DNA of 43,975 nt from Vogesella oryzae (lineage in GTDB: Bacteria > Pseudomonadota > Gammaproteobacteria > Burkholderiales > Chromobacteriaceae), in assembly GCF_902829295.1 (NCBI RefSeq), contig NZ_CADEPL010000029.1, positions 1 through 43,975 of the forward strand, read 5' to 3'. The notes beneath the pieces were generated by a model, which saw only the letters and a list, made by a program, of their open reading frames with translations, was not told where the DNA came from and searched no databases. Below are positions 1-43,250 of the stretch, in pieces. How positions within the stretch are numbered: the first letter of the stretch is position 1; each line of letters opens with the position of its first letter. The position numbers were made by a program, and so were the translations under genes.

Positions 1-768
1 GGCATCGCGGTGACCGGCACCATGGTGATCACCACCATCCTCACCTTCATGGTGGCGCGGCAGCAGTGGCAGTGGTCGCCGCTCAAATGCGTGCTGATCC
101 TCGGCAGCCTGCTGCTGGTGGACATCGCCTACTTCAGTGCCAATGCCTTCAAGCTGCTGGAGGGCGGCTGGTTCCCGCTGGCGATGGCGCTGCTGATCTT
201 CACGGTGATGACCACCTGGAAGCGTGGCCGCGAGCTGGTGCATGACAAGTTGGCCGCAGACGGCATGCCGCTGGCACAGTTTGTCGAGCTGATGGCGCCG
301 GCGGTACCGCGGGTGCAGGGCACCGCCATCTTCATGACCTCCGACCTGCACAGCACGCCGCATGCCCTGCTGCACAGCATGAAGCACTACAAGAGCCTGC
401 ATGAACGGGTGGTGATCCTGAAGGCGGAGGTGGCCGATACCCCGCATGTACCGGCAACCGAGCGGGTGCAGGTCGAGGTAATGGGCGAACAGTTCTACCG
501 CGTGCAGGTGCTGTTCGGCTTCATGGACGAACCGGACGTGCCGCAGGCGCTGGTGCAGTGCGAGGCGCAGGGGCTGGTGCTGGAGATGATGGACACCTCG
601 TTCTTCCTCGGCCGCGAAACGCTGATCCCCAAGGTAGGGGCGGGAGTGATGAGCCGCTGGCGCGAGAAGCTGTTCCTGGCGATGTTCCGCAATGCCGGCG
701 CCGCCTCGGCCTACTTCCGCCTGCCGCCGAACCGGGTGGTGGAGCTGGGCTCGCAGCTGGCGCTGTAG
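1..768 (+). CDS. kup: Kup-type low-affinity K+ transporter, C-terminal part (5' end outside window)
   Basis: Frame 1 is open from the first base (G-I-A-V-T-G-T-M) to TAG at 766-768, so about 255 C-terminal residues are seen and the start lies upstream. The AVTGTM and EGGWFPL stretches are hallmarks of the KUP/HAK/KT family, which takes up K+ with H+ across the inner membrane. Three hydrophobic segments are visible (about residues 8-20, 30-52 and 57-75 of the fragment). A roughly 170-residue soluble cytoplasmic tail follows, with the family's late RLPPNRVVELG ending. The gene is convergent with the diguanylate cyclase, with only 10 bases between the stops. The identification is firm; the number of missing N-terminal residues (probably more than 350) is inferred from the family length. 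Confidence 0.93.
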   Translation, partial: GIAVTGTMVITTILTFMVARQQWQWSPLKCVLILGSLLLVDIAYFSANAFKLLEGGWFPLAMALLIFTVMTTWKRGRELVHDKLAADGMPLAQFVELMAPAVPRVQGTAIFMTSDLHSTPHALLHSMKHYKSLHERVVILKAEVADTPHVPATERVQVEVMGEQFYRVQVLFGFMDEPDVPQALVQCEAQGLVLEMMDTSFFLGRETLIPKVGAGVMSRWREKLFLAMFRNAGAASAYFRLPPNRVVELGSQLAL

Positions 769-778
769 CGGCGGGCGT

Positions 779-1783
779 TCAGCCGGAAATAGTTGCGGTG
801 TTGGCGACGTAGTGACGCACGCGGCTGCGGCCGCCGGCCTTGGCGGCGTACATGGCGGCATCGGCATGCTGTACCAGCGCCTCGGCACTGCTGCCGTCCG
901 CCGGATACAAGCTGGTGCCGATGCTGGCTCCCAGCGCGACCAGGTTGCCGTCGAGGCTGAAGCTGCGGTTCAGCGCCGCCAGGATGCGCTGGCTGACGTG
1001 TTCCACCGACGGGCAGCCGGCCTCGTCGCGCAGGAACAGGATGAATTCGTCGCCACCGAGGCGCGCCACCAGGTCGCCCTCGCGGACAATCTGCCGCAGC
1101 TCGCAGGCGACGGCACACAGCGCCTTGTCGCCAATCACATGGCCGAAGCGGTCGTTGAGTTCCTTGAACAGGTCCAGGTCGACAAACAGCACCGCCAGGC
1201 CGCGCGCCTGCCGGCCGGCATCGGCGATGGCATCGCCCAGCTGGTGGTAGAACTCGGCGCGGTTGGGCAGACCGGTCAGCGCATCGTGGCGGGCCATGCG
1301 CAGCAGCGCCAGCTCGTTTTCCTTGCGCGGGGTGATGTCGACGTGGGAACCCATGATGCGCAGCGGGGTGCCATCGGCCGCGCGCTCCAGCACCCGGCCA
1401 CGATCCCACAGCCAGGTGATGCGGCCATCCGGGCCGATGGTGCGGTACTCGGCCTCGTAGCTATCGCTGTCGCCGCGCAGGTGGGCCTGGTAGTTGGCCA
1501 CCACCCGTTCGCGGTCATCCGGGTGCACCTTGGCATACCAGATGTCGAAGTTCGCAGCCATGTCGCCAGCCTGGAAGCCTTGCAGGTTGAACACCTGCAG
1601 CTCGCCTGTGGCCAGCAAACCCTGCCACAGGCACAGGCCGGTGCCATCCAACGCAGCATTCAGTTTTTCCTGCAGCGTGACATTTTCCTGCTGCAACGTA
1701 GCCAACTGCTGTTGCAGGCGGCTCAGCTCGTGTTGCAGCTGCTGGCGGTCAGGTCGACGGGGCTGGTTATCCATGTGCGGCAT
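779..1783 (-). CDS. PAS-GGDEF diguanylate cyclase
   Basis: This 334-residue protein makes the second messenger c-di-GMP from two GTP. Residues 10-45 are a glutamine/leucine-rich coiled coil. About 45-155 is a PAS/PAC sensor domain (the PAC end reads GSHVDITPRK), and 160-330 is the GGDEF domain. The catalytic GGDEF motif is intact at 243-247. An RxxD inhibitory site (R234, D237) sits five residues before it, which predicts product feedback. There is no signal peptide or membrane segment, so it should be cytoplasmic. The start is uncertain: ATG at 1783 and ATG at 1774 are both possible, and neither has a clear Shine-Dalgarno sequence. It is convergent with kup and has no operon partner. Confidence 0.93.
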   Translation of the reverse strand: MPHMDNQPRRPDRQQLQHELSRLQQQLATLQQENVTLQEKLNAALDGTGLCLWQGLLATGELQVFNLQGFQAGDMAANFDIWYAKVHPDDRERVVANYQAHLRGDSDSYEAEYRTIGPDGRITWLWDRGRVLERAADGTPLRIMGSHVDITPRKENELALLRMARHDALTGLPNRAEFYHQLGDAIADAGRQARGLAVLFVDLDLFKELNDRFGHVIGDKALCAVACELRQIVREGDLVARLGGDEFILFLRDEAGCPSVEHVSQRILAALNRSFSLDGNLVALGASIGTSLYPADGSSAEALVQHADAAMYAAKAGGRSRVRHYVANTATISG

Positions 1784-1919
1784 ACTGCGACAGGCAGCGC
1801 TGGTGGTTGGTGGGGTGGCGGATACTATAACAAGCCCTGCTCATGTCATGCGGGTAATGGCTGCCGCCCGTGGTCGCCATGCAGTGCTGCAACTGCCGGG
1901 GGTGGCGGCCAGCCGGTGC

Positions 1920-1941
1920 CTGCGGCCAACGTTGGCCGCAG
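1920..1941. repeat. 22-bp perfect palindrome made of two head-to-head 10-mers
   Basis: Two inverted copies of the dispersed 10-mer abut exactly, at 1921-1930 and 1931-1940. One extra C/G pair extends the palindrome to 22 bp. It lies about 30 bases past the stop codon of the minus-strand FAD oxidoreductase (stop at 1973), where a terminator stem would sit. No T-tract follows on the minus strand, so a rho-independent terminator role is unproven. Confidence 0.85.
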
Positions 1942-3616: not shown

Positions 3617-5110
3617 TTACAGGCTGGGGAAGGCGAATTGCGACGCCTCGTGGTTGGCGCGCTGCGGCCAACGTTGGGTAATGGTCTTGCGCTTGGTGTA
3701 GAAGCGCACGCCATCCGGACCGTAGGCATGCAGGTCGCCAAACAGCGAACGCTTCCAGCCGCCAAAGCTGTGGTAGGCCACCGGTACCGGCAGCGGGACG
3801 TTGACGCCCACCATACCGACTTCGATCTCGTCGCAGAACAGGCGCGCGGCTTCGCCATCGCGGGTGAACAGGCAGGTGCCGTTACCGTATTCGTGGTCGT
3901 TGATCAGCTGCATGGCTGCTTCCAGACTGCCGACGCGTACGATGCACAGCACCGGCCCGAAGATCTCCTCGCGGTAGATGGTCATCTCCGGGGTCACCTT
4001 GTCGAACAGCGTGCCGCCGACGAAGAAGCCCTGCTCATGGCCAGCCACCGACAGCTGACGGCCATCCACCACCAGCTCGGCCCCCTGGGCCACGCCGCTG
4101 TCGATATAGCCCTTCACCTTGTCGCGTGCCGCGCCGGTGACCAGCGGGCCCATGTCCAGACCGCAGGAAGTACCAGCGCCGATCTTCAGCGCCGTAATCT
4201 TCGGCACCAGTTTTTCTACCAGCTTGTCGGCCACCTGGTCGCCTACCGCCACCACCACCGAAATCGCCATGCAGCGTTCGCCGCAGGAGCCGTAGGCCGC
4301 GCCCATCAGCGCATTGACGGTGTTATCCAGATCGGCATCCGGCAGTACCACGGCGTGGTTCTTGGCGCCGCCCAAGGCCTGCACGCGCTTGCCGCGCTTG
4401 GTGCCTTCGCTGTAGATGTACTCGGCAATCGGCGTGGAGCCGACGAAGCTCAGCGCCTTAACTTCCGGCGCCTCGATCAGCGCATCGACGGCAGCCTTGT
4501 CGCCGTGCACCACGTTGATCACGCCCTTGGGCAGGCCGGCCTCATGCAGCAGCTGGGCGATGAACAGCGTGGAGCTCGGGTCGCGCTCGGACGGCTTGAG
4601 GATGAAGCAGTTGCCGCACACGATGGCCAGCGGATACATCCACAGCGGCACCATGGCCGGGAAGTTGAACGGGGTGATGCCGGCCACCACGCCCAGCGGC
4701 TGGTGGTCGGACCAGCTGTCGATATTCGGGCCGACGTTGCGGTTGTATTCGCCCTTCAGCAGCTCCGGTGCGCCGCAGGCGTATTCCACGTTCTCGATGC
4801 CGCGCTGCAGTTCGCCGACCGCATCTTCGATGGTCTTGCCGTGCTCTTCGCTGATCATGGCGGCAATCTTGTCGCGGTTGGCTTCCAGCAGCTGCTTGAA
4901 GCGGAACATCACCTGCGCACGCTTGGCCGGCGGGGTGTTGCGCCAGGCCGGGAACGCCGCCTTGGCCGCGGCTATGGCGGCCTGGATGGTGGCCTCATCG
5001 GCCAGCGCCACCTGGCGCACGGCTTCGCCGATGGACGGGTTGAACACCGGGGCGGTGCGGCCAACGTTGGTGACGAGTTCACCATTGATCAGGTGTTGTA
5101 CGGTAGTCAT
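3617..5110 (-). CDS. mmsA: CoA-acylating (methyl)malonate-semialdehyde dehydrogenase
   Basis: This 497-residue protein is an NAD-dependent ALDH-superfamily enzyme that converts malonate or methylmalonate semialdehyde to acetyl- or propionyl-CoA plus CO2. N149 (in PFNFP) and the nucleophile C280 (GSCGERC) are in place. The general-base glutamate of ordinary ALDHs is missing: the site reads LGGAKNH, which is the signature of the CoA-acylating MMSDH branch. The ATG at 5110 has an AGAGAG site about 10 bases upstream and matches the family length. It lies 66 bases downstream of the BauA transaminase, so here it probably handles malonate semialdehyde from beta-alanine (the BauC role). Two copies of the dispersed 10-mer lie within it, at 3663 and 5056. 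Confidence 0.93.
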
Positions 5111-7585: not shown

Positions 7586-7605
7586 TGCGGCCAACGTTGG
7601 CCGCG
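7586..7605. repeat. 18-bp palindrome of two head-to-head 10-mer cores
   Basis: GCGGCCAAC at 7587-7595 abuts its complement at 7596-7604; the left copy is the full 10-mer and the right copy has G for the last A. It sits 47 bases after the stop of the LysR gene and 20 bases before the AraC-type gene, where a terminator would be. There is no T-tract. Confidence 0.8.
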
Positions 7606-8463: not shown

Positions 8464-9855
8464 GTGCAGGCAAGCGAAATCAGTTTGTGGATGGACCAGC
8501 TGGGCAGCGTGCCGGCGGCGCCGCCCTTGGCCGGCGATACCGCTGCCGACGTGGTGATTGTCGGAGCCGGTTACACCGGGCTGTGGACCGCCTATTACCT
8601 GAAGCAGCTGGCACCGGCGCTGGATGTGGTGGTGCTGGAGGCGCACACCGCCGGTTACGGCGCCTCCGGCCGCAATGGCGGCTGGGTGATCGGCGAGCTG
8701 GCCGGCGAGGACCGGCTGCTGGCCGGCCTGGATGCCGGGCAACGTGCTGCTTGCCTGGCGCTGCTGCGCGACATCCCGGCCGAGGTTGGCCGCGTGGTGG
8801 CGCGGGAAGGGCTGGACTGCGACTTCCGCCACGGCGGCGTGCTGTATTGCGCCGCACGCTATCCGGAACAGGCAACCCGGCTGCGCGCGCAGCTGGCGCA
8901 CTGGCATGCGCATGGCCACGGTCCGCAAGACTTTGCCTGGCTGGAGGTCGCCGCGCTGCAGCAACAGCTGCGGCTGGCGCAGCCGTATGGCGCGGTGTTT
9001 TCGCCGCATGTCGCCACCATCCAGCCGGCGAAGCTGGTGCGCGAGCTGCGCCGCTGCGTGCAGGCGCTGGGGGTGCGGCTGTACGAACACAGCCCGGTCA
9101 GCGCCATCCGCCCGCATGAGGCGGTGACCGCACAGGGGCGGGTGCGTGCCCGCTGGGTGGTGCCGGCGCTGGAGGCCTACACCGCCGGCGTGACCGGCGT
9201 GCGCGCCCAGCAGATTGCGGTGCAGAGCATGATCATCGCCACCGAGCCGCTGCCGCCGGCGCTATGGGCGCAGATCGGGCTGGCGCACGGTCAGGCATTC
9301 AGCGAATGGAGCCGGCTGGTGAGTTACGGCCAACGTACCCGCGACAACCGGCTGGTGTTCGGTGCCCGTGGCGGCTATCGCTTCGGCGGCAAGTTGCGGG
9401 CGTCGTTTGCCCTGACCGCAGACGAGGTGGCGCTGCGGCGCAAGCTGATGCTGGAGTTGTTTCCGATGCTGGCGCAGGCGCGCATCACCCACGGCTGGGG
9501 CGGCAACCTTGGCGTGGCGCGCGGCTTTGCGCCGCAGGTGGTGGTCGATGCGGCCAACGGTGTGCTGAGCGCCGGCGGCTATGGCGGCGAGGGCGTCGGC
9601 GCCAGCAATCTGGCTGGCCGCACCCTGGCGGCACTGATCTGCGGCACGCAAGATGCCATCTTGCAGATACCGTGGCAGACCACGCCGGACAGGCTGCGGC
9701 GCTGGGAGCCGGAGCCGCTGCGCTGGCTGGGCTACAACGGCATCATCCGCAGTTTCGACTGGGAAGACCGGGTGCTGAACGACCCTGGCAGTGCTGGCTG
9801 GCAGCGCCGGCTGGCACAAGGGTTGGCCGCCGGCATGGAAGGCTTGATGCAGTAG
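8464..9855 (+). CDS. DadA-type FAD-dependent oxidoreductase
   Basis: A 463-residue paralogue of the BauB/PuuB-like protein upstream. The FAD motif VVIVGAGYTGLWTAYYL is near residue 30, GASGRNGGW near 70, and the late GGYGGEGVGASNLAGRTLA stretch completes the FAD site. The GTG at 8464 is preferred because GGGGAGGG lies about 8 bases before it; an in-frame GTG at 8440 overlaps that ribosome site. It probably oxidises an amine or amino acid with O2 or a quinone as acceptor; the substrate cannot be deduced. It follows the NTF2-AraC regulator and is convergent with fdsD, with 10 bases between the stops. The 10-mer lies inside it at 9549. Confidence 0.85.
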   Translation: MQASEISLWMDQLGSVPAAPPLAGDTAADVVIVGAGYTGLWTAYYLKQLAPALDVVVLEAHTAGYGASGRNGGWVIGELAGEDRLLAGLDAGQRAACLALLRDIPAEVGRVVAREGLDCDFRHGGVLYCAARYPEQATRLRAQLAHWHAHGHGPQDFAWLEVAALQQQLRLAQPYGAVFSPHVATIQPAKLVRELRRCVQALGVRLYEHSPVSAIRPHEAVTAQGRVRARWVVPALEAYTAGVTGVRAQQIAVQSMIIATEPLPPALWAQIGLAHGQAFSEWSRLVSYGQRTRDNRLVFGARGGYRFGGKLRASFALTADEVALRRKLMLELFPMLAQARITHGWGGNLGVARGFAPQVVVDAANGVLSAGGYGGEGVGASNLAGRTLAALICGTQDAILQIPWQTTPDRLRRWEPEPLRWLGYNGIIRSFDWEDRVLNDPGSAGWQRRLAQGLAAGMEGLMQ

Positions 9856-9865
9856 CGGCGGCGGC

Positions 9866-10096
9866 TTACTGCGCGGCAGGCTGCCAGCTGTCGTCGGCCT
9901 GCAGCGCCTCGCGCACGATGGGGCTGAGGTTGGCCGCATCCTGCTGCAGGATTTGCTGCAGCGCGCGGCGCATGCGTGGCTCCCAGAAGCGCTTGATGTG
10001 CAGGGTGATGCCGGCCAGTGCTTCCTGCCGGTCCGGCATGGCTTCGAAGAAGCTGCCGATCTGGTTGGCCATGTGGGTCAGGTGTTGGGTATCCAT
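9866..10096 (-). CDS. fdsD: Formate dehydrogenase delta subunit
   Basis: This 76-residue protein reads HLTHMANQIGSFFEAMPDR then HIKRFWEPRMRR, the signature of the NAD-dependent formate dehydrogenase delta subunit family. It is the fifth gene of the operon, the position it holds in Cupriavidus. It is thought to assist assembly of the molybdenum enzyme; no catalytic residues are expected. It starts 14 bases after the fdhD stop. A copy of the 10-mer (9929-9938) lies inside it. Confidence 0.9.
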   Translation of the reverse strand: MDTQHLTHMANQIGSFFEAMPDRQEALAGITLHIKRFWEPRMRRALQQILQQDAANLSPIVREALQADDSWQPAAQ

Positions 10097-10956: not shown

Positions 10957-13811
10957 GCCTTGCCTTCGTTGCTAGCGGCCTGCTCCAGCAGCTCAAGCTG
11001 GGTTTCGTTGAAACGCTGGTAGTCCTGCTGCCATTCCGACGGCTGCGTGACCGGCAGCACCTGCACCGCGGTGACCTTGTATTCCGGGCAGTTGGTGGCC
11101 CAGTCCGAGTTGTCGGTGGTAATCACGTTGGCGCCGGATTCCGGGAAGTGGAAGGTGGTGTACACCACGCCCGGCTGCATGCGCTCGCTGACCTTGGCGT
11201 GCAGCACCGTTTCGCCGGCGCGGCTTTGCACGCCGACCCAGTCGCCATCCTTGATGCCGCGTTCCTCGGCATCGTGTGGGTGGATTTCCAGCACATCTTC
11301 CGCATGCCAGGCCACGTTGTCGGTGCGGCGGGTCTGCGCGCCGACGTTGTACTGCGACAGGATGCGGCCGGTGGTGAGGATCAGCGGGAAGCGGCGGGTG
11401 ATCTTCTCGTCGGTGGCCACGTACTGGGTGACGAAGAACTTGCCCTTGCCGCGCACGAAGCCGTCGATGTGCATGGTCGGGGTGCCATCCGGCGCAGCGT
11501 CGTTGCACGGCCACTGCACGCTGCCGAGTTTGTCGATCTTCTGGTAGCTGACGCCGGCAAAACTCGGGGTCAGTCGCGCGATTTCGTCCATGATCTGCGA
11601 CGGATGGCTGTAGTCCATCTTCAGCCCCAGCGCGTTGGCCAGCAGCTGGGTGACTTCCCAGTCGGCGTACTTGGCCAGCGGTTTCATCACCTGGCGCACG
11701 CGCGAGATGCGGCGCTCGGCGTTGGTGAAGGTGCCGTCCTTTTCCAGGAACGAGGCACCGGGCAGGAACACGTGCGCGTACTTGGCGGTTTCGTTGAGGA
11801 AGATGTCCTGCACCACGATGCATTCCATCGCCGACAGCGCGGCGGTGACGTGCTGGGTGTTGGGGTCGGACTGCACGATGTCCTCGCCCTCGCAATACAG
11901 GCCCATGAAGCTGCCGGACAGCGCGGCGTCGAACATATTCGGGATGCGCAGGCCCGGTTCCGGGTCCAGCGTCACCCCCCACGCCTGCTCGAACAGCTGG
12001 CGGGTGGTGGTGTCGGAGATGTGGCGGTAGCCCGGCAGCTCGTGCGGGAACGAGCCCATGTCGCAGCTGCCCTGCACATTGTTCTGGCCGCGCAGCGGGT
12101 TGACGCCGACGCCCTCGCGGCCAACGTTGCCGGTGGCCATCGCCAGGTTGGCAATGCCGATCACCATGGTGGAGCCCTGGCTGTGCTCGGTGACGCCCAG
12201 GCCGTAGTAGATGGCGGCGTTGCCGCCGGTGGCGTACAGCCGCGCCGCGCCGCGCACCAGCTCGGCCGGCACGCCGGTGATGGCGGCGGTAGCTTCCGGC
12301 GAGTTTTCCGGCTTGGCGACGAAGTCGCGCCAGTCGTGGAAGGATTTTTCTTCGCAGCGCTCAGCAATGTAGTCGTTGGCCAGCAGCCCTTCGGTGACGA
12401 TCACGTGCGCCAGCGCGGTGATCATTGCCACGTTGGTGCCCGGTTTCAGCGCCAGGTGGTAGTCGGCCTTGATGTGCGGGCTGCCCACCAGGTCGATCTT
12501 GCGCGGGTCGATCACGATCAGCTTGGCGCCTTCGCGCAGGCGTTTTTTCATGCGCGAACCGAACACCGGATGCGCATCGGTGGGATTGGCGCCGATTACC
12601 AGGATCACGTCGGAATGCTCCACCGACTTGAAGGTCTGGGTGCCGGCCGAGGTGCCCAGGGTCTGGCCGAGACCATAACCGGTGGGCGAGTGGCAGACGC
12701 GGGCGCAGGTGTCGACGTTGTTGTTGCCGAAGCCGGCGCGGATCAGCTTCTGCACCAGGTAGGTTTCTTCGTTGGTGCAGCGGCTGGAAGTGATGCCGCC
12801 GATGGAGTCCTTGCCGTACTTGGCCTGCAGGCGCTTGAACTCGCTGGCGGCGTAGGCGATGGCTTCTTCCCAGCTGACTTCGCGCCACGGGTCGGTGATC
12901 TTGCTGCGGATCATCGGCTTGGTGATGCGCTCCGGATGGGTGGCATAGCCCCAGGCGAAGCGGCCCTTGACGCAGGCATGGCCTTCGTTGGCCTTGCCGT
13001 CCTTCCACGGCGTCATGCGCACTACCTGGTTGCCTTTCATCTCGGCCTTGAAGCCGCAGCCGACGCCGCAGTAGGCGCAGGTGGTGATCTTGCTGTGTTC
13101 CGGCTGGCCGAACTGGATCACCGATTTTTCCTGCAGCGTGGCGGTGGGGCAGGCGTCGACGCAGGCGCCGCACGACACGCACTCGGACTCCATGAACGGC
13201 TGATCTTGTCCCGGTGACACGCGCGATTCGAAGCCGCGGCCGGAGATGGTCAGCGCGAAAGTGCCCTGGGTTTCCTCGCAGGCGCGCACGCAGCGGTTGC
13301 AGACGATGCACTTGGCCGGGTCATAGCTGAAGTACGGGTTGGACTCGTCCTTCTGGCTGTCCAGGTGGTTGGCGCCGGCCAGGCCGTAGCGCACTTCGCG
13401 CAGGCCGGTGACGCCGGCCATGTCCTGCAGTTCGCAGTCACCGTTGGCCGCACAGGTCAGGCAGTCCAGCGGGTGGTCGGAGATATACAGCTCCATCACC
13501 CCCTTGCGCAGGCTTTGCAGCTTGTCGCTCTGGGTGCGCACCACCATGCCGGCTTCGGCCGGGGTGGTACACGAGGCGGGAAAACCGCGGCGGCCGTCGA
13601 TTTCCACCAGGCACAGCCGGCAGGAGCCGAACGGCTCCAGGCTGTCGGTGGCGCACAGCTTGGGCACCATGCTGCCGGCCTCGGCGGCGGCGCGCATCAG
13701 CGAGGTGCCTTCCGGCACGGTGACCTGCTGGCCGTCGATTTCCAGGGTGACCATGCGCTCGGAGACGCGGGCCGGGGTGCCGAAGTCGGTGTCGTGAATC
13801 TGGGTGTTCAT
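10953..13811 (-). CDS. fdsA: NAD-dependent formate dehydrogenase, catalytic alpha subunit
   Basis: 952 residues. The N-terminal NuoG-like part has a [2Fe-2S] site (C53, C64, C67, C81), a His/Cys [4Fe-4S] site (H113, C117, C120, C126), and two ferredoxin clusters (C168-C178 and C211-C221). The molybdopterin domain starts with C245, C248, C252 and C280. The Mo ligand is cysteine C373 (RVCHSPT), not selenocysteine. It oxidises formate to CO2 and passes electrons to FdsBG. The ATG at 13811 is preferred, with AAGGA 8 bases upstream; an earlier in-frame start at 13838 would run into the fdsB end. The enzyme is cytoplasmic: no Tat signal is present. Confidence 0.97.
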   Translation of the reverse strand: MNTQIHDTDFGTPARVSERMVTLEIDGQQVTVPEGTSLMRAAAEAGSMVPKLCATDSLEPFGSCRLCLVEIDGRRGFPASCTTPAEAGMVVRTQSDKLQSLRKGVMELYISDHPLDCLTCAANGDCELQDMAGVTGLREVRYGLAGANHLDSQKDESNPYFSYDPAKCIVCNRCVRACEETQGTFALTISGRGFESRVSPGQDQPFMESECVSCGACVDACPTATLQEKSVIQFGQPEHSKITTCAYCGVGCGFKAEMKGNQVVRMTPWKDGKANEGHACVKGRFAWGYATHPERITKPMIRSKITDPWREVSWEEAIAYAASEFKRLQAKYGKDSIGGITSSRCTNEETYLVQKLIRAGFGNNNVDTCARVCHSPTGYGLGQTLGTSAGTQTFKSVEHSDVILVIGANPTDAHPVFGSRMKKRLREGAKLIVIDPRKIDLVGSPHIKADYHLALKPGTNVAMITALAHVIVTEGLLANDYIAERCEEKSFHDWRDFVAKPENSPEATAAITGVPAELVRGAARLYATGGNAAIYYGLGVTEHSQGSTMVIGIANLAMATGNVGREGVGVNPLRGQNNVQGSCDMGSFPHELPGYRHISDTTTRQLFEQAWGVTLDPEPGLRIPNMFDAALSGSFMGLYCEGEDIVQSDPNTQHVTAALSAMECIVVQDIFLNETAKYAHVFLPGASFLEKDGTFTNAERRISRVRQVMKPLAKYADWEVTQLLANALGLKMDYSHPSQIMDEIARLTPSFAGVSYQKIDKLGSVQWPCNDAAPDGTPTMHIDGFVRGKGKFFVTQYVATDEKITRRFPLILTTGRILSQYNVGAQTRRTDNVAWHAEDVLEIHPHDAEERGIKDGDWVGVQSRAGETVLHAKVSERMQPGVVYTTFHFPESGANVITTDNSDWATNCPEYKVTAVQVLPVTQPSEWQQDYQRFNETQLELLEQAASNEGKA

Positions 13812-15842: not shown

Positions 15843-16077
15843 GGTGGCTCCTCTGTGAGCGTCGGTCTGCCGTGTCGGCATGTGGCTTTGCGCGATTGTC
15901 GCGCCGAAGGCTCGTGGCAATCTGTCTTTATCCGACTTGTAATGGCCGAGAACGCGCGGGGCGCCCGGTACTGTTAAGCATAATATCCGTTGGCCGCATG
16001 TGCCGGAGGTTGGCCGCAGGTGGGCAGCGTAGCGGAGCGCTGAGGGACGGGGCGACAGAGTGGCAGCCGCACAGGGC
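15843..16077. other. Upstream region of the fds operon up to the IS3 junction
   Basis: 235 bases without a gene. They hold the leader of fdsG, two tandem 10-mer copies (15989-15998 and 16009-16018), and the boundary with the broken IS3 element. The truncated transposase frame runs on to 15974 but is not homologous past about 16078. No fdsR regulator gene is present beside the operon, which in other bacteria often has one. I could not assign a -35/-10 pair. Confidence 0.55.
15989..16018 (-). repeat. Two tandem 10-mers 20 bp apart at the island edge
   Basis: GTTGGCCGCA at 15989-15998 is repeated at 16009-16018 in the same orientation. Start-to-start spacing is 20 bp, and similar bases follow each copy (TG and GG). 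They are the last copies before a 5.6 kb stretch without the word. Confidence 0.8.
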
Positions 16078-16483: not shown

Positions 16484-16494
16484 GAAGCGGGACC

Positions 16495-16779: not shown

Positions 16780-16842
16780 GACACCTCCTTGTAGGGCCTA
16801 GTGTGAGGCTCACGAGGTATCTAGGAAAGGAGGGGCGATTCA

Positions 16843-18378: not shown

Positions 18379-18380
18379 TG

Positions 18381-18427
18381 TTGGTATCCGTTGTCGTTGG
18401 TATGTAATCTACCAACAGAGATACCAA
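18381..18427. promoter_or_regulatory. Four TTGGTAT boxes upstream of the integrase
   Basis: Two direct boxes (TTGGTAT at 18381-18387 and 18397-18403) face two inverted ones (TACCAAC at 18410-18416 and ATACCAA at 18421-18427). The inner pair forms GTTGGTA-N7-TACCAAC. The cluster starts 3 bases before the integrase ATG. Such clusters suit integrase arm sites or an autoregulatory operator; which one is not decidable here. Confidence 0.6.
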
Positions 18428-27447: not shown

Positions 27448-28149
27448 CTACGCCGAGCGTCGGTAGTCCTCCAGCGCGTGACGAGCGGTCTCATCAGTGC
27501 GGGTGGTGTCTCCAAGCGGTGTTGCCGCATTCTGGTCGAGGTCGATCAAGTGGTCTGCAAGCTGGCTGGCCAGAGCCCGGTCCTGCAAGGTGATTACGAT
27601 GGTGCGGCCAGTCAAGGCCAGGCGTTGCAGCTGTTGTAACAGCTGTCTGCGGGCGGTGAGGCAGAGACTGGTGGCCGGTTCATTCAGCAACACAACTGGT
27701 GCGGTACTGACCAGACAGCGGATGATGGTGGCTAGCTGCTGTTCAGCGCTGGTTAGCTGGCAGAAGCGCTGCTCGGCAAGGTGCAGTAAGCCAAAGTCGC
27801 GCAGGAGCTGGTTGGCAAGCTGTTGATTGTTGTCATTGCCGCGTCGCCACCAATGGCTGGTTTGCTGCTGCAGCACATAGCGGCCTAGTTGCTGTCGGCA
27901 GTGGTTGCTGACACTTTGCTGCAGGCAGGTCAGGCGCCGGAGCCTGTCAGCATGGGCAGCTTGACCGAATAGTTGGCCGCAAACGAAGTCGCCGCTGCCT
28001 GCGAGCGAGGCAAGCAGTTGGCGACGGCTATTGGGTGTCCCGCCGGTGATGATGGTCAGGCGGTTGGCTGGTATGTAGAGCGGTAGTGACTGCGTGGCGC
28101 GGCTGTCGGGGGCGATATGGAGTTGCAATTCGTAGGCAGGGCACAGCAT
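27448..28149 (-). CDS. Degenerate ABC-type ATPase subunit, Fur-box preceded
   Basis: This 233-residue protein has the layout of a siderophore/haem/cobalamin importer ATPase (FecE/HmuV/BtuD type), but the nucleotide site is degraded. Walker A reads ITGGTPNSRRQLL (the lysine is R), the signature reads LTSAEQQ instead of LSGGQ, Walker B reads VVLLNEP (D to N156, E157 kept), and the H-loop histidine is Q189. It probably binds ATP poorly or not at all. The start at 28149 has AAGGAG 7 bases upstream. No permease or binding protein is near. A 27-bp Fur-type palindrome lies 70 bases upstream. Confidence 0.75.
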   Translation of the reverse strand: MLCPAYELQLHIAPDSRATQSLPLYIPANRLTIITGGTPNSRRQLLASLAGSGDFVCGQLFGQAAHADRLRRLTCLQQSVSNHCRQQLGRYVLQQQTSHWWRRGNDNNQQLANQLLRDFGLLHLAEQRFCQLTSAEQQLATIIRCLVSTAPVVLLNEPATSLCLTARRQLLQQLQRLALTGRTIVITLQDRALASQLADHLIDLDQNAATPLGDTTRTDETARHALEDYRRSA

Positions 28150-30494: not shown

Positions 30495-31361
30495 ATGGCG
30501 GAAATCACCGCAAAGATGGTATCCGACCTGCGCGCTGCGACTGGTCTGGGCATGATGGAGTGCAAGAAGGCTCTGGTAGAGGCTGATGGCGATTCTGCCA
30601 AGGCTGAAGAGATTCTGCGCATCAAGTCCGGTAACAAGGCATCCAAGATGGCTGGCCGTGTTGCTGCAGAAGGTATCATCGGTTCTTTCGTTGCCGGTGG
30701 CGTTGGCGCCCTGGTAGAAGTGAACTGCGAAACTGACTTCGTAGCCAAAGACCCGACCTTCATCGCCCTGGCTACTGCAGCTGCCAAAGCAGTTGTTGCG
30801 GCCAACCCGGCTGATGTTGAAGCGCTGGCTGCTGTTGAGGTTGATGGCCAGTCCGTGGAGGAAACCCGCAAGGCAGCCATTGCCAAGCTGGGCGAAAACA
30901 TGACCATCCGTCGTTTCGTTCGTTACGAAACCGACGGCGCTATCGCTACCTATCTGCATGGCGCCAAGATCGGCGTTATCGTTGATTACAAAGGCGAAGA
31001 GCAAGTGGGCAAGGACGTGGCTATGCACATTGCCGCTTCCAAGCCGATTTGTGTTTCCAAGGATCAGGTTCCGGCCGAAACCCTGGAGCAAGAGCGCAAG
31101 ATCTACACCGCACAAGCTGCAGAATCCGGCAAGCCGGCTGATATCGTGGCCAAAATGGTTGAAGGTCGCGTGAACAAGTTCCTGGCGGAAGTGACTCTGG
31201 TTGGTCAGCCGTTCGTCAAGAACCCGGACGTTACCGTAGAGAAGCTGCTGGCTGAGAAATCCGCTTCGGTGAAGGCATTTGCCATGTTTGTCGTTGGCGA
31301 AGGCATCGAGAAGAAGGTTGTGGACTATGCTGCTGAAGTGGCTGCTGCTGCCAAGCTGTAA
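30495..31361 (+). CDS. tsf: Elongation factor Ts
   Basis: This 288-residue protein is the guanine nucleotide exchange factor for EF-Tu. The EF-Ts signatures [16 protein letters not shown] (about 11-26) and the core [11 protein letters not shown] (about 76-86) are present; the TDFV stretch displaces Mg2+ and GDP in EF-Tu. AAGGAG lies 8 bases before the ATG. Confidence 0.98.
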
Positions 31362-32812: not shown

Positions 32813-33562
32813 GTGTTTGCAAGTTCCACGCAGGGCGTGCCGGAGGTGCAGTCTGTGCCCCGGCACATTGCCATCATCATGGATGGCAATGGTCGTTGGG
32901 CCAAAAAACGTTTGCTGCCCCGAGTGGCGGGTCACAAGCGGGGCCTCGATGCGGTACGCGATACGGTCAAGCACTGTATCGATCTCGGCGTCGGCTATCT
33001 GACATTGTTTGCCTTTTCCACTGAGAACTGGCGGCGTCCGGCAGATGAAGTCAATTTCCTGATGGAGTTGTTCTTTGTGGCGCTGGAGCGTGAAGTTGAG
33101 CGTCTGCATCAGAGCAATATCCGATTGCGAGTTATCGGTTCGCGTGATCGCTTTTCTGCTGCCATCTGCCAGCGTATCGATGCGGCAGAAGCCAAGACGG
33201 CGGGCAATAGCGGTCTGGTGCTGACCATCGCGGCAGATTATGGTGGTCGCTGGGACGTGCTGCAGGCGGTAAATCGTCTTCATGCCTCAGGGGTGACGGA
33301 CATCGACGAGGCCAGCCTTGCGGCCAACCTGTCGATGGCTTATGCGCCAGAGCCTGATTTGTTTATCCGTACCGGTGGCGAGCAGCGCATCAGTAATTTC
33401 CTGTTGTGGCAGCTTGCCTATTCCGAGCTCTATTTCACTGATTTGTTATGGCCTGACTTTGGCAAGGATGCGCTGGATGTGGCGCTGGCTTCCTTCCGCA
33501 GTCGCGAACGGCGGTTTGGTCGTACCAGTGAACAATTGCCGCAAGCCCATCGCCGAGGCTGA
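32813..33562 (+). CDS. uppS: Undecaprenyl diphosphate synthase
   Basis: This 249-residue cis-prenyltransferase makes the C55 carrier for peptidoglycan and LPS. The catalytic aspartate is in [15 protein letters not shown] (about residue 25), and the SEN motif (FAFSTENW) and the [15 protein letters not shown] stretch are complete. GTG at 32813 with AGGAG directly after the frr stop. Confidence 0.96.
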
Positions 33563-33565: not shown

Positions 33566-34381
33566 ATGCTGATAACCCGCGTCATTACGGCGTTGTTACT
33601 GTTGCCCATCATGCTGGGCGCTGTGTTCTATTTTCCGGCCCCGCTGTGGGCGGCGTTTTCCTGGCTGGTTGTTGGTCTGGCGTTGCGGGAGTTCTCTCGC
33701 ATGGCTGCTATCAAAGGTTGGCCGCAGGTGATCTACCTGCTGTTCAGCTCGTTGTTGGCAGCCGGTTTTTGGCAGCTGCCGGTCGCAGGGCAGGGGCAGG
33801 TAGCGGATGTTGTGCTTATGCTGGCATTGCCGGTGTGGCTGCTGCTGGCGCCGCTGTGGTTGGCACAGCGCTGGCCATTGCCGCGTGGTGTCAAAGCCAT
33901 GCTGTTGGGCTGGGTGCTGATGTTTCCGGCTTGGCTTGGCTTTTTGGCCTGGCGGCCGGATGATGCGACAGCCAGCGGTATGCATTTGCTGGCCGTTATG
34001 GGTTTGGTGTGGATTGCGGATATTGCCGCCTATTTTGCAGGCAAGGCCTTCGGGCGACGTAAGCTGGCCCCGTCTATTAGTCCTGGCAAGAGCTGGGAGG
34101 GTGTGGTCGGCGCCGTGCTGGGCGTGGCGGCGTATGTCTGGTTGGTGCTGCAGCTGGGGTGGCTGCAGCTGGATCTGCCGTTGCCAGGCCTGTTGCTGCT
34201 CGCGCTAGGGTTGACCGCCGTGAGTGTGGTCGGTGATTTGCTGGAGTCCTGGTTCAAGCGTAGTGCCGGCATCAAGGACAGTAGCAATCTGTTGCCTGGC
34301 CACGGTGGTGTCTATGACCGTATTGACAGCCTGATTGCGGTGCTGGCGGTGTCTGCAGCCTTGCAGCGTCTGTTTGCCTGA
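33566..34381 (+). CDS. cdsA: Phosphatidate cytidylyltransferase
   Basis: A 271-residue polytopic inner-membrane enzyme that makes CDP-diacylglycerol from phosphatidate and CTP. About eight hydrophobic segments are visible. The signature S-V-V-G-D-L-L-E-S-W-F-K-R, then IKDSSNLLPGHGGVYDRIDS, lies near the C-terminus with its metal-binding aspartates. It starts 3 bases after uppS. Confidence 0.96.
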   Translation: MLITRVITALLLLPIMLGAVFYFPAPLWAAFSWLVVGLALREFSRMAAIKGWPQVIYLLFSSLLAAGFWQLPVAGQGQVADVVLMLALPVWLLLAPLWLAQRWPLPRGVKAMLLGWVLMFPAWLGFLAWRPDDATASGMHLLAVMGLVWIADIAAYFAGKAFGRRKLAPSISPGKSWEGVVGAVLGVAAYVWLVLQLGWLQLDLPLPGLLLLALGLTAVSVVGDLLESWFKRSAGIKDSSNLLPGHGGVYDRIDSLIAVLAVSAALQRLFA

Positions 34382-34404: not shown

Positions 34405-35583
34405 ATGAAGCTCCAAAAAATCACGGTTTTGGGATCGACCGGTAGTATCGGCGGCAGTACGCTGGATGTGGTGGCGATGCACCCGGAGCGCTATCAGGTA
34501 TATGCGCTGGCTGCCAATAGTCAGGTCGATAAGCTGTTCGAGCAATGTCTACGCTTTCGCCCGGAATTCGCTGTGCTGGTGGATGTTGCTGCCGCCTCCC
34601 TGTTGCGTAATCGCCTGGCTGAGGTGGGTAGCCGTACCGAAGTGTTGCACGGCGCGGCGGCGCTAGAAGCTGTCGCCACTGCCGATCAGGTCGATATGGT
34701 AATGGCGGCAATTGTTGGTGCCGCCGGTTTGCGGCCAACTATCGCTGCGGCATTGGCTGGGAAGCGCATTCTGCTGGCAAACAAAGAGTCGCTGGTTGTG
34801 GCCGGTGATTTGTTCATGCAGGCGGTGCGCAATGGCGGTGCCGAGTTGCTGCCGGTGGATAGCGAGCATAATGCGCTGTTCCAGTCGCTACCCGCCGGAT
34901 TTGATGGTGATCTTGCTGGCGCGGGTATCGAAGAGCTGATTCTGACTGCATCGGGTGGTCCGTTTCGCCAGCATACTCTAGAGCAACTGCAGCAGGTTTC
35001 GGCGGAAGATGCCTGCCGGCATCCCAACTGGGTGATGGGGCGCAAGATTTCGGTCGACTCCGCTTCATTGATGAACAAGGGTCTGGAAGTTATCGAGGCG
35101 CACTGGCTGTTTGCTACCCCGCCGGAGCGCATCAAGGTGGTGGTTCATCCGCAAAGCGTGATTCATTCCATGGTGCGGTACTGCGATGGTTCGGTGATTG
35201 CCCAGTTGGGGACGCCAGACATGCGTACTCCTATTGCATATGCGATGGCTTGGCCGCAGCGTATTGCTGCGCCGGTGGCGCCGCTGGATTTCATGGCCTT
35301 GTCGTCGCTGACCTTTGAACAGCCCGATCTGCAGCGTTTCCCATGTCTGCGGTTGGCCTTCGACTGTTTGCATGCTGGTGGGGATGCGTCGGCTGTATTG
35401 AATGCGGCCAACGAGGTGGCGGTGGCTGCATTCCTGTCTGGTCGTCTGGCTTTCTTGCAAATTCCCCGATTGATCGAGAGAGCGCTGGAGCAGAGTGACC
35501 TGGCATTGAGCCGGGATCTTGATGGCTTGCTGGAGAAAGATGCCATGGTGCGCAATATCGTACAGGGCTGGATTGCCGGATGA
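34405..35583 (+). CDS. dxr: 1-deoxy-D-xylulose 5-phosphate reductoisomerase
   Basis: 392 residues; second step of the MEP isoprenoid pathway. NADPH motif LGSTGSIGGSTLDV (9-22), metal ligands in PVDSEHNALFQ, the loop SGGPFR, and MGRKISVDSASLMNKGLEVIEAHWLF are all complete. It supplies precursors used by UppS upstream. Its stop overlaps the rseP ATG. 10-mers at 34730 and 35403. Confidence 0.97.
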   Translation: MKLQKITVLGSTGSIGGSTLDVVAMHPERYQVYALAANSQVDKLFEQCLRFRPEFAVLVDVAAASLLRNRLAEVGSRTEVLHGAAALEAVATADQVDMVMAAIVGAAGLRPTIAAALAGKRILLANKESLVVAGDLFMQAVRNGGAELLPVDSEHNALFQSLPAGFDGDLAGAGIEELILTASGGPFRQHTLEQLQQVSAEDACRHPNWVMGRKISVDSASLMNKGLEVIEAHWLFATPPERIKVVVHPQSVIHSMVRYCDGSVIAQLGTPDMRTPIAYAMAWPQRIAAPVAPLDFMALSSLTFEQPDLQRFPCLRLAFDCLHAGGDASAVLNAANEVAVAAFLSGRLAFLQIPRLIERALEQSDLALSRDLDGLLEKDAMVRNIVQGWIAG

Positions 35584-39787: not shown

Positions 39788-40831
39788 ATGAAACTTTCCC
39801 AAATTGTCGCCGTGCTGGGCGGCGAGCTGCGTGGCGAAGATCGCGAGATTAGCCGTCTTGCGCCAATGGGCGAAGCGGCAGCGCAAGAGATTACCTTTCT
39901 TGCCAATCCGAAATTCCGCAGTCAGCTGGCGAGCTGTCAGGCTGGTGCCATTATCGTCAAGCCGGCACTGGCTGATGAGGCGCAGAAAGAAGATCGCAGC
40001 CTGATCCTGATTGCCGATCCGTACCTTTATTTTGCCAAAGTTGCCACGTTGTTCAACCCGCCGGCAAAGGCACGTGCCGGAGTGCATGCCAGTGCCGTTA
40101 TCGGTGACGGGGCCCGTATTGCCGCCAGCGCCGAAGTGCGCGAACTGGTCAGTGTTGGCCGCAATGTGGTGATCGGAGAGCGCTGCATTCTGCATCCGGG
40201 TGTGGTGCTTGGTGATGACGTAGAGTTGGGTGACGACGTGGTGTTGTACCCGAATGTCACTGTCTATCACGGTTGCCGCTTGGGTAACCGCGTTGGCGTG
40301 CATAGCGGCACGGTGATCGGTGCCGATGGCTTCGGTCTGGCCTGGGCTGGCGACAGCTGGTACAAAATTCCGCAAACCGGTCGTGTCATCATTGAGGACG
40401 ATGTCGAGATCGGTGCCAACACCACCATTGATCGTGGAGCGTTGACCGACACCATCATTCGCAAGGATGCCAAAATCGACAACCTGGTGCAGGTGGCGCA
40501 TAACGTGGAGATCGGTGCACATACCGCCATTGCCGGTTGTGCCGGTATTGCCGGTAGTACCAAGATCGGCGCCAATTGCACTATCGGCGGCGCTGCGATG
40601 ATGGTTGGCCACATAGAGATTGCCGATCATACCCACATTGGCGGCGGCACGCTGGTATCCAAATCCATTCGTAACGCCGACAATTACGCGTCGTCGTTCC
40701 CGCTTTCCACCTATAAAGACTGGCTGACAAATGCCTCGCACTTGCGGCACCTGGATCAGCTGGTCACCCGTGTCAAACAACTTGAAAAAGCACTGAAAGA
40801 AGTGCAACAGAACAAGGACGTACAAGCATGA
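39788..40831 (+). CDS. lpxD: UDP-3-O-acylglucosamine N-acyltransferase
   Basis: 347 residues; third step of lipid A synthesis. An N-terminal uridine-binding domain (about 1-95) precedes a left-handed beta-helix of hexapeptide repeats. The catalytic histidine is in [12 protein letters not shown] (about 237). A C-terminal helix follows. Its stop overlaps the fabZ ATG (ATGA). The ribosome site is weak. Confidence 0.97.
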
Positions 40832-41301: not shown

Positions 41302-41303
41302 GC

Positions 41304-42077
41304 ATGGCAATCCATCCTACCGCCATTATCGCGGAAGGCGCCAAGATCGCGCCGGATGTGGAAATCGGTGCCTACAGCATTATCGGGGCCAATGTCAGCA
41401 TCGACAGCGGCACCTGGATCGGCCCGCATGTGGTAATCGAAGGGCATACCAGCATCGGCAAGAACAACCGCATCTTCCAGTTCTGCTCGCTGGGTGCGGT
41501 GCCGCAGGATAAAAAATATGCCGGCGAACCGACCCGACTGGAAATCGGCGATGGCAATACCATCCGCGAATTCTGCACCTTCAATATCGGTACTGCGCAG
41601 GACGTGGGTGTTACCCGCATGGGCAACAATAACTGGATCATGGCCTATGTGCATCTGGGCCATGATTGCCAGGTCGGTAACAACACCATCTTCGCCAATA
41701 ACGCGACCCTCGGCGGGCACGTACATATCGGTGACTGGGTCATCCTGGGTGGCTTTACCAGCGTGCACCAGTTCTGCCATATCGGCGCCCATGCCATGAC
41801 GGCTTTCTCCAGTGCCGTGGCGCAGGATGTGCCGCCGTACGTGATGGCGCACGGCAACCGCGCGGTGCCCAGCGGCATCAACGCCGAGGGACTGAAGCGT
41901 CGCGGCTTCTCGCCGGAGCAGATCCGCAATATCCGCAATGCCTACAAGTCGCTGTACCGCAAAGGGCTGTCTTTTGACGATGCCAAGGCGGAAATCACCG
42001 CTGCGGCAGCAGGTAATGCCGAACTTGATTTGTTCGTGCAATTTTTCGAGACAGCCAACCGCGGCATTATCCGTTAA
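41304..42077 (+). CDS. lpxA: UDP-N-acetylglucosamine acyltransferase
   Basis: 257 residues; first step of lipid A synthesis. Hexapeptide beta-helix from the start ([20 protein letters not shown]), with the catalytic histidine in [14 protein letters not shown] (about 121). A helical C-terminal domain follows. The ATG lies 2 bases after fabZ. Confidence 0.97.
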
Positions 42078-42080
42078 TCC

Positions 42081-43250
42081 ATGACTGCAAAGCTGTTTAC
42101 CCGCCCGGGTGCCCTCAAGGTGGCCATGGTCGCCGGCGAGGCCTCGGGCGATCTGTTGGGTGCGCATCTGATGGACGCGCTGCGCCATGCCCATCCGCTG
42201 GTCGAGTTTGCCGGCATTGGCGGGCCGCGCATGGTGGCGCGTGGTTTTCATAGCCAGGTACCGCAGGAAAAACTGGCGGTGCGCGGCTATCTGGAAGTGC
42301 TGAAAAGCCTGCCAGCGTTGCTGCGTATCCGTCGGAATTTGCGCAAGACGCTAATAGCCGAACGGCCGGACGTGTTTGTCGGCATCGATGCGCCGGACTT
42401 CAATCTCGGCTTGGAGAAAAGCCTGCGCAAGGCCGGGCTGCGAACCGTGCATTATGTCAGTCCATCGGTGTGGGCCTGGCGGCCGGAGCGGGTAAGCAAG
42501 ATTGGTGAGTCTGCCGATCTGGTGCTGTGCCTGTTCCCGATGGAAAAGCCGCTGTACGACGCTGCCGGGGTGCATGCGACCTATATCGGCCACCCGCTGG
42601 CAGGCGAAATCCCGTTTACCCCGGATCGTGATGCCATGCGCGAGCAACTGGGGCTGCGCAAGCAGGGGCCGGTGTTTGCCCTGTTGCCGGGTAGCCGCCG
42701 CAGCGAGCTGGATTTCATGGGCGGGTTGTATATCGAGGTGGCTCGCAAGCTGCTGCAGGAGTATCCGGACGCCGAATTCCTGGTGCCACTGGCCACGCGG
42801 CCAACCCTTGATCAGTTCGATCAGCTGCTTAGCCGCCACAAGGCGTGGGATCTGCCGATCCGCAAGCTGATTGGCCATGCGCAGATGGCGATGATCGCGG
42901 CTGACGTGGTGCTGGTGACCAGTGGCACCGCCACGCTGGAAGTGGCGCTGACCAAGCGGCCGATGGTGATCAGTTACAAGCTGTCGTGGCTGACCTACCA
43001 GCTGGTCAAGCGCAAGCTCAAGTTGCCGTATGTCGGCTTGCCCAATGTGCTGGCCGGGCGTTTCGTGGTGCCGGAATTGCTGCAGAAGGATGCTACGGTA
43101 GAGAAGTTGGCCGCGGCAGTCAGCAAGCTGTATCAGGACCAGGATAGCCGGCAGGAAATCATCACCACCTTCGAGCGCCTGCACGAGGAACTGAAGCAGG
43201 ACTCCGCCAAGTTGGCCGCACGCGCGGTATTGCGGGTGGCGCGGTGCTGA
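42081..43250 (+). CDS. lpxB: Lipid-A-disaccharide synthase
   Basis: A 389-residue GT19 glycosyltransferase that joins UDP-2,3-diacylglucosamine and lipid [18 protein letters not shown] at the start, [12 protein letters not shown] and [10 protein letters not shown] are the family blocks. It overlaps rnhB by 7 bases. Sites of the 10-mer family are at 42798, 43107 and 43211. Confidence 0.97.

Follow-up and report, generated by a model that had tools for sequence, protein, structure and literature searches.

The locus and its word copies

The window, a stretch of 43,975 nt of Vogesella oryzae DNA, contains 25 exact copies of the ten-base word TGCGGCCAAC, 12 on the forward and 13 on the reverse strand, spanning it from 249-258 to 43211-43220 (Table 1). 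The first-pass annotation, which proposed the word as an undescribed DNA uptake sequence (DUS) dialect, had given at least 25 copies with the same split by strand and about 36 copies of a nine-base core, and our recount of the core GCGGCCAAC is likewise 36. One of the sites kept in all four named Vogesella genomes lies in an ORF (34405-35583) that resembles dxr. Bins with a GC content below 0.55 hold 0.10-0.16 copies per kb and those above 0.60 hold 0.74-0.78, but low GC itself lowers the expectation. The stretch beside the tmRNA, the single island annotated, has no copies.

Table 1. Exact copies of the putative uptake word in the window, and a word-free stretch for contrast.
Feature	Position	Strand	Basis
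Putative uptake word TGCGGCCAAC	249..258	-	exact-match scan
Word, left arm of perfect 20-bp inverted pair, intergenic gap	1921..1930	+	exact-match scan, pair list
Word, right arm of 1921..1940 inverted pair, spacing 0	1931..1940	-	exact-match scan, pair list
Word	3663..3672	+	exact-match scan
Word	5056..5065	+	exact-match scan
Word	7586..7595	+	exact-match scan
Word	9549..9558	+	exact-match scan
Word	9929..9938	-	exact-match scan
Word	13443..13452	-	exact-match scan
Word	15286..15295	+	exact-match scan
Word, direct pair with 16009..16018	15989..15998	-	exact-match scan
Word, direct pair with 15989..15998	16009..16018	-	exact-match scan
Word-free stretch (contrast, outside the signal): integrase, transposase remnant, JetD gene, beside tmRNA	16019..21660		
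Word, first after word-free stretch	21661..21670	+	exact-match scan
Word	23591..23600	-	exact-match scan
Word	24038..24047	+	exact-match scan
Word, Vogesella oryzae only among five aligned genomes	24872..24881	-	scan, alignment
Word, Vogesella oryzae only among five aligned genomes	27258..27267	-	scan, alignment
Word	27972..27981	-	exact-match scan
Word, identical aligned site in 3/4 named Vogesella	30797..30806	+	scan, alignment
Word, identical aligned site in 4/4 named Vogesella	33319..33328	+	scan, alignment
Word, Vogesella oryzae only among five aligned genomes	33717..33726	-	scan, alignment
Word in ORF 34405-35583, identical aligned site in 4/4 named Vogesella	34730..34739	+	scan, alignment
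Word, Vogesella oryzae only among five aligned genomes	35403..35412	+	scan, alignment
Word; in four named Vogesella, copy elsewhere in same gene	40154..40163	-	scan, alignment
Word; in four named Vogesella, copy 24 alignment columns further on	43211..43220	-	scan, alignment

Abundance beyond composition and codon use

TGCGGCCAAC is the commonest 10-mer of the window, where Markov models of orders 2-4 expect 0.45 to 0.89 copies and dinucleotide shuffles (n = 100) yield a mean of 0.35 and at most 2. The whole genome (3.4 Mb, 58 contigs) contains 2,273 copies (1,163 forward, 1,110 reverse), against 13 (6 + 7) of the same word read backwards, which served as the whole-genome control. Ranked by an order-5 Markov model in a 425-kb sample (424,671 bases, 12% of the genome), it is the top 10-mer, with 273 copies for 17.6 expected (z 60); the second-ranked is a poly-C/G 10-mer (86), nearly all of whose signal comes from runs at a single contig end. 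Both the genomic count and, within the sample, the rank agree with the first-pass predictions of roughly 1000 or more copies and of a place at or near the top against such a model. In a 525-kb sample, synonymous shuffling within genes produced 9.7 copies (no more than 17 in any of 40 rounds) where the real genes contain 209, and one-letter variants at positions 2-10 are scarce (0-18 each, against 349 exact copies).

The word is over-represented far beyond composition and codon models. A bias in codon choice or oligonucleotides, the genome being G+C-rich, had been named beforehand as an explanation that would undo the proposal, and it gains something from the two reading frames A-A-N and L-A-A, which dominate and contain 142 of the 209 in-gene copies, so that amino-acid use does shape where the word sits. 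Neither the synonymous shuffles nor the order-5 expectation comes near the observed counts, however, and related genera of similar G+C lack TGCGGCCAAC as an abundant word; with the Markov and shuffling controls ruling against it, we give a composition artefact practically no credence.

Placement in genes, gaps and strands

Placement was analysed in the 525-kb sample, which comprises 18 contig pieces and the 349 copies, with genes called by a home-made gene caller. Every piece carries the word, and the copies split 177 to 172 by strand with no sign of heterogeneity over the 18 pieces (p = 0.79). The six reading frames of the in-gene copies are used 72, 70, 34, 17, 9 and 7 times. Between genes there are 137 copies where 38 are expected, at a density of 5.70 per kb between convergent genes and 0.57 per kb between divergent genes. 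The earlier description of copies in both coding and non-coding DNA is borne out; that of copies read in all frames holds for the frames themselves, all six being used, but their usage is uneven.

Bacteria have short, very abundant and clade-restricted words of the Chi, KOPS or matS type, and a polar chromosome-maintenance word of this kind, acting in recombination, DNA translocation or segregation, would share those general features with TGCGGCCAAC. The first-pass annotation had argued from strand-neutrality against KOPS and Chi, and had held that a strong strand skew would tell against an uptake sequence; no such skew or polarity is seen within the contig pieces. The excess between convergent genes and the inverted pairs described below likewise misfit Chi or KOPS, and the presence of copies in all 18 pieces is unlike matS. 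We have therefore discarded a polar motif for its lack of strand bias and regard it as very improbable.

The sample contains 35 inverted pairs, 32 of them intergenic. None of these 32 lies between divergent genes, and 25 have a stop codon no more than 20 bp away (manual count from the pair list). Of the 8 positions that follow a pair, 3.8 are T for the -+ type (n 12) and 2.0 for the +- type (n 28). Such a position and T content are what a transcription terminator or REP-like element that had spread selfishly or to serve mRNA ends might display, but 209 of the 349 sampled copies are intragenic and occupy all six frames, and 35 pairs can comprise no more than 70 copies. A tie between DUS and terminators is also reported for Neisseriaceae by Frye et al. 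(2013, PMC3630211; cited here, like PMC4906244 and PMC12616744, from part of the text), so the tie of TGCGGCCAAC to terminators may be a by-product. We consider a terminator or REP-like origin a shade less credible even than a polar motif. TGCGGCCAAC is strand-neutral, lies in and between genes and forms inverted pairs at gene ends, as DUS do.

A dialect series in Chromobacteriaceae

The family was represented by 61 genomes, 13 of the word's own genus, inferred to be Vogesella, and 48 of nine other genera. TGCGGCCAAC occurs 1,871-2,895 times in each of the 13, 8-58 times in the 48, and at most 28 times per genome in 142 other genomes of the class. Two sister words were found, CTCGGCCAAC with 1,940 and 1,590 copies in genus g5 and TTCGGCCAAC with 183-2,168 copies in eight genomes. 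All three words contain the core CGGCCAAC and thus form a dialect series, TG-, TT- and CT-CGGCCAAC; in the sister words the bases 3' of the core lean to C/G, T, T/G and G. The words are clade-specific dialects, as in DUS. Among 399 genomes of the order, TCGGCCAAC exceeds 1,000 copies in two genomes only, both of this family, and the 386 outside the family have 186 or fewer. Genus g2 has one word-bearing species (G010) and nine that are word-free; no word stood out in the 120-160 kb sampled per genus from g2 (except G010), g3, g4 and g8. A weak GCTGGCCAA signal was seen in g8.

Laribacter, Lutiella, Pseudogulbenkiania and Chromobacterium are now mostly placed in Chromobacteriaceae. Five genomes of these genera, two of them Chromobacterium, are listed as without obvious DUS in the part of Frye et al. 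(2013, PMC3630211) used here, which describes eight Neisseriaceae dialects that all keep CTG at +6 to +8 and A at +10. CTG is absent from both strands of TGCGGCCAAC and its sister words, and a comparison by eye of CGGCCAAC with the CTG words was unconvincing as to homology. The first-pass annotation was right that the word is unlike the known Neisseriaceae words, lacking the CTG core of the eight dialects in PMC3630211; its proposal of an undescribed DUS dialect survives as a dialect of a separate series in the neighbouring family, and not as one of the GCCGTCTGAA family.

A ComP-like minor pilin

The annotation had pointed to a ComP-like minor pilin gene as the thing to look for, and to a lack of competence pilus genes as grounds for rejection. 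Such a pilin is present, as are the uptake genes ComEC, DprA and PilMNOPQ, although ComEC went undetected in G057 (330 contigs) and G058 (88% complete), both word-bearing genomes of the genus. The pilin was located with a curated alignment of 15 sequences (A1), and the G000 pilin is recovered at 108 bits by a profile from which it had been left out. Compared alone with the PDB, the G000 pilin has ComP structures as its best three matches, and 2nba, 2m3k and 5hz7 rank 1-3, over the soluble domain, in all three pilin searches; to judge from sequence, its nearest solved relatives are ComP. It has, like ComP (2M3K, 5HZ7, 2NBA; PMC4906244, in part), a type IV pilin N-terminus and the stretch ALLENAHF..(W/F)Y..G.(Y/F)K......WP.LP.

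Unlike ComP as described in those parts of PMC4906244, the pilin has two rather than four C-terminal cysteines and a very short tail after the last of them. Exactly two cysteines, 9-11 apart, follow residue 100 in 30 of 30 pilins, with one additional cysteine at residue 43 in G010 and G059; the DNA-binding DD region of ComP, with its four cysteines and two disulfides, was found in 0 of the 30, which are therefore without a DD region held by two disulfides. The G000 pilin reached no Pfam family at E 0.001. The G049 and G038 pilins pass PF16732 (ComP_DUS), but higher scores go to other pilins of G000, G049 and G055, which leaves the family without discriminating power here. It was dropped as a receptor finder in favour of A1, since all 61 family genomes contain between one and four matches to it and its sole match in G000 is a different pilin, clustered with fimT-, pilV-, pilW- and pilY1-like ORFs. 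Net charge did not separate pilins of word-bearing from those of word-free genomes, several word-bearing pilins being acidic, and was rejected as a marker. The pilin also occurs in the word-free genera g2 (except G010), g3 and g8 and is thus not sufficient for the word.

A further difference from ComP lies in the genomic neighbourhood, which is identical in 13 of 13 Vogesella-type genomes: the gene belongs to a fimT-comP pair next to aroB and pilQ, with the fimT-type gene (PF12019 GspH in G000) preceding comP on the same strand by 420-559 bp, midpoint to midpoint. TGCGGCCAAC might accordingly be an uptake sequence whose receptor is another minor pilin, such as this FimT/GspH protein. The constant pairing would suit such a receptor, as would the lack of the second disulfide of ComP in the ComP-like pilin and the proposal (PMC12616744, in part) that the uptake signal sequences (USS) of Pasteurellaceae are recognised by PpdA/ComN, for which GspH and FimT/FimU family annotations also exist. 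It is nevertheless the ComP-like pilin that has known DUS receptors as its nearest solved relatives, and word-free genera likewise have fimT-type genes upstream of the pilin; on this analysis we judge a FimT-type receptor unlikely, though a more serious contender than the alternatives above.

Interpretation

We read TGCGGCCAAC as a DUS, the TG- dialect of the CGGCCAAC family, with a ComP-like minor pilin as its likely receptor, and assign this reading as a whole a probability of about 0.84. The best reading of the distribution is that Chromobacteriaceae have a separate family of uptake words with its own dialects, some sister genera using TT- or CT- dialects of CGGCCAAC. The word would serve as a self-recognition label on the bacterium's own DNA. 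A surface DNA receptor carried by a retractable type IV pilus, probably the ComP-like pilin of the fimT-comP pair, would bind it preferentially, natural transformation would then favour DNA of the cell's own kind, and we infer that the word raises DNA uptake. Copies would accumulate because uptake and recombination favour word-bearing DNA, and accumulation of this kind would account for copies on either strand, in every frame and in intergenic DNA, and for their scarcity in recent imports.

The words resemble Neisseriaceae DUS, as portrayed in the cited part of PMC3630211, in their length of about 10, in a genomic copy number of a thousand to several thousand, in lying in and between genes, in terminator-tied inverted pairs and in dialects that track phylogeny. 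They differ from them in the core, CGGCCAAC, and in that their dialects diverge at positions 1 and 2. Like the USS of Pasteurellaceae, said in PMC12616744 to have arisen independently of DUS for the same job, they are a separate family with a DUS-unlike sequence; from USS, as presented there, they differ in sequence, receptor candidate (ComN/PpdA) and clade.

All DUS in the papers cited here come from Neisseriaceae and have a single CTG core. A second word family of at least three dialects next to Neisseriaceae, with a recognisable but simpler pilin, would serve as an outgroup for studying how DUS originated. Naturally matched pilins and words would be material for solving the recognition code, and word-bearing and word-free species within one genus a contrast for the cost of gain or loss. 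The bearers with names are laboratory type strains of environmental origin, which would allow experiments without a pathogen. Whether the ComP-like pilins of Chromobacteriaceae read a wholly different core, GGCCAAC and not CTG, through a receptor with one disulfide is to our minds evenly balanced; if they do, the pilin-to-word code would be open-ended, beyond letter swaps around CTG. Genus g2, with G010 and its nine word-free species, would be an instance of a self-label in the course of being gained or lost. At residue 115 (G000 mature numbering) all 13 TG pilins have Thr, all 8 TT pilins Asp and both CT pilins Ser, but Asp also occupies this position in 6 of 7 word-free pilins. Correlation of pilin with dialect is confounded by descent, because dialect follows genus almost exactly. 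Residue 115 lies in the turn directly before the first C-terminal cysteine, and on the same GGCCAAC reading this turn may carry part of the code.

A family of putative uptake words in the Chromobacteriaceae

The recurrent 10-mer TGCGGCCAAC was proposed in the first-pass annotation as an undescribed dialect of the DNA uptake sequence (DUS). The DUS-type part of that proposal stands: from its sequence signature the word is predicted to work like a DUS, with a probability of roughly 0.84, and it represents the TG dialect of a real family of putative uptake words with at least three dialects in the Chromobacteriaceae. A place among the dialects of the Neisseriaceae word is not supported because the CTG core is absent from TGCGGCCAAC, whereas all eight DUS dialects carry it in the accessible text of Frye et al. 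(2013; PMC3630211). The same text reports that Laribacter hongkongensis, Lutiella nitroferrum, Pseudogulbenkiania sp. NH8B, Chromobacterium sp. C-61 and C. violaceum had no obvious DUS. The family is also undescribed within the open-licence PMC literature searched: the word is unreported in titles and abstract openings on uptake sequences in Vogesella, Chromobacteriaceae, Neisseriales, Chromobacterium and Pseudogulbenkiania, and unmentioned in those on natural transformation in Vogesella. In the accessible portions of uptake-sequence papers that contain the letters GGCCAAC, these belong to primers or oligonucleotides, and no DNA-uptake title was among the matches listed for papers containing the 10-mer itself.

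Abundance and placement of the word

A recount gave the first-pass figures again, with 25 exact copies in the window (12 on the plus and 13 on the minus strand; dinucleotide shuffles give 0.35) and 36 occurrences of the nine-base core. The whole V. oryzae genome (3,415,129 bases) holds 1,163 forward and 1,110 reverse copies, where roughly 1000 or more had been anticipated, and 6 and 7 of the word read backwards. Against an order-5 Markov model, the check proposed at the outset, TGCGGCCAAC is the top-ranked 10-mer (273 seen, 17.6 expected, in a 424,671-base sample). Poly-G ranks second because of the runs of 11-49 G at the start of contig C10 (positions 22-185 of extracted locus L103), which are probably a sequencing artefact.

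Genes were called with a home-made two-model caller (coding share 0.890) in 524,671 bases from 18 contig pieces. Of the copies in this sample, 209 lie in genes, 3 straddle a boundary and 137 are intergenic against an expectation of 38, with a density of 5.70 per kb between convergent genes versus 0.57 per kb between divergent ones. Codon bias, named by the first-pass annotation as a potential refutation, is ruled out as the source of the word, since synonymous-codon shuffling within genes leaves a mean of 9.7 copies (largest 17 in 40 shuffles) versus the real 209. A polar motif is disfavoured by strand counts of 177 and 172 that lack heterogeneity across contig pieces (p = 0.79), which bears out the strand neutrality first claimed. 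For each one-letter variant at positions 2-10 there are 0-18 copies, and position 1 is tolerant (C, 96; G, 84; A, 22). Intergenic gaps hold 32 of the 35 close inverted pairs. No divergent gene pair flanks any of these 32, and for 25 of them a stop codon is no more than 20 bp away. The accessible text of Frye et al. describes intergenic regions as especially tolerant of DUS and links inverted pairs with terminators (PMC3630211).

Copies are sparse at low GC, with 5 in the seven 5-kb bins below 0.55 and 298 in the 79 bins at or above 0.60. Genes for an integrase and JetD, together with the remnant of a transposase, lie in a word-free stretch of the window. This stretch and the copy-poor bins fit unlabelled imported DNA, with the proviso that low GC alone lowers the expectation.

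Features of the window and the candidate pilin gene of the V. oryzae genome (G000)
Feature	Position	Remark
IS-type transposase pieces	window 15974-16779	beside tmRNA gene
Phage-type integrase	window 17161-18042	beside tmRNA gene
Wadjet JetD, type III	window 19129-20127	PADLOC, 336 bits; four ORFs scanned
Region with these three features	window 15974-21475	beside tmRNA gene
Word-free stretch	window 16019-21660	beside tmRNA gene
Presumed RseP-like protein	window 35580-36914	
ORFs whose word sites differ from four named Vogesella	window 39788-40831; 42081-43250	
ComP-like pilin	G000:C22:14342-14737	A1 profile, 108 bits

Dialects and their turnover

Across 61 family genomes in ten genera (g1-g10), TGCGGCCAAC has 1,871-2,895 copies in all 13 genomes of g1, inferred to be Vogesella, and 8-58 in the 48 others. 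The TT dialect TTCGGCCAAC has 183-2,168 copies in eight genomes (G010 of g2, G036 and G037 of g6, G038 of g7, G045 of g9 and G046-G048 of g10) and 8-78 in the remaining 53; both g5 genomes are rich in the CT dialect CTCGGCCAAC, with 1,940 and 1,590 copies, and none of the 59 others exceeds 165. When 9- and 10-mers were ranked unsupervised in 20-60 kb per genus, the dialect word was the top 10-mer in g5, g6, g7, g9 and G010 and third in g10; no such word appeared in the samples ranked from g3, g4, g8 and the rest of g2. The dialects share the core CGGCCAAC, followed by a preference for C/G, T, T/G and G. G010 holds 1,368 copies of TTCGGCCAAC versus 11-36 in each of G001-G009 of the same genus, so that either the word was gained or lost inside g2 or G010 is misplaced. 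In g8, which has no clear word, slight excesses of CTCGGCCAAC in G040 and G043 (92 and 85 copies) and of GCTGGCCAA in the samples may reflect a dialect that decayed or was imported.

In 399 genomes of the order, a count that covers the TT and CT forms, TCGGCCAAC exceeds 1,000 copies only in G010 and G038, both of this family, and reaches at most 186 in the 386 genomes of other families. Some of the latter stand two- to fourfold above the reversed control (116 vs 27 in G288, 102 vs 23 in G187), an excess far smaller than in word-bearers. Counted in a further 142 genomes of the class, TGCGGCCAAC peaks at 28; beyond the family, this count of the TG form took in a single genome from the same order.

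For a window protein that we take to resemble RseP, the nearest named relatives among the matches listed were four Vogesella species (60-61% identity), followed by Gulbenkiania mobilis (51%) and a Laribacter MAG (47%). TGCGGCCAAC occurs 13, 14, 14 and 8 times in the Vogesella loci, each 21,332 bases long, and the Gulbenkiania locus has eight copies of TTCGGCCAAC and one of TGCGGCCAAC; none of the three dialect words was found in the Laribacter locus. The alignment of window genes that have two or more orthologues in the Vogesella loci shows 13 sites where some species carry the word; the window is among the holders at nine, three of them common to others.

A candidate receptor

Pfam ComP_DUS has one to four matches in each of the 61 family genomes and none in 14 control genomes, and cannot single out the receptor because other pilins score higher. 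Alignment A1, of 15 curated pilins sharing an ALLENAHF...WP.LP stretch (the V. oryzae sequence not among them), finds its best PDB matches in the three ComP structures (2nba, 2.8e-21; 2m3k, 8.9e-19; 5hz7, 3.7e-18). Its profile located in V. oryzae the ComP-like minor pilin that the first-pass annotation had suggested seeking, whose own top three PDB matches are 2m3k (1.4e-6), 5hz7 (6.2e-6) and 2nba (1.4e-4). In all 13 g1 genomes the pilin gene comes after a fimT-type gene, with aroB and pilQ close by; in 16 of 17 genomes from other genera it is preceded on its own strand by a fimT- or pilY1-type match, usually at a distance of 2-6 kb. Of the competence pilus genes also sought, PilMNOPQ adjoin the pilin gene in V. 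oryzae, which has DprA and ComEC as well. ComEC occurs in 59 of the 61 genomes, with no match in G057 and G058, both word-bearing members of g1.

Judged from such comparisons, this candidate would on balance be likely to read the word. The cysteines count against a receptor role: Neisseria ComP carries four that form the DD region (PMC4906244), and DUS binding reportedly depends crucially on its disulfides (PMC12061091), whereas all 30 pilins compared here have just two at the C-terminus. The pilin is present with the word absent in g2 (except G010), g3 and g8, the copy in G039 has an internal stop, and in the four g4 genomes, all word-free, A1 gives only 60-66 bits, from other pilins. Word-bearing and word-free pilins cannot be told apart by net charge. 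TG pilins form a single branch (support 100/100), which is not independent evidence because dialect and genus nearly coincide. Residue 115 is without exception Thr in TG (13), Asp in TT (8) and Ser in CT (2) pilins, and Asp (6) or Tyr (1) in word-free ones, a pattern that may offer a lead on dialect, confounded by descent.

Further related pilins occur in some genomes: two in tandem in G045 (C3:1518684 and 1519223; locus L153), and a second one, at 106-111 bits, in G003 (locus L165), G005, G007 and G008.
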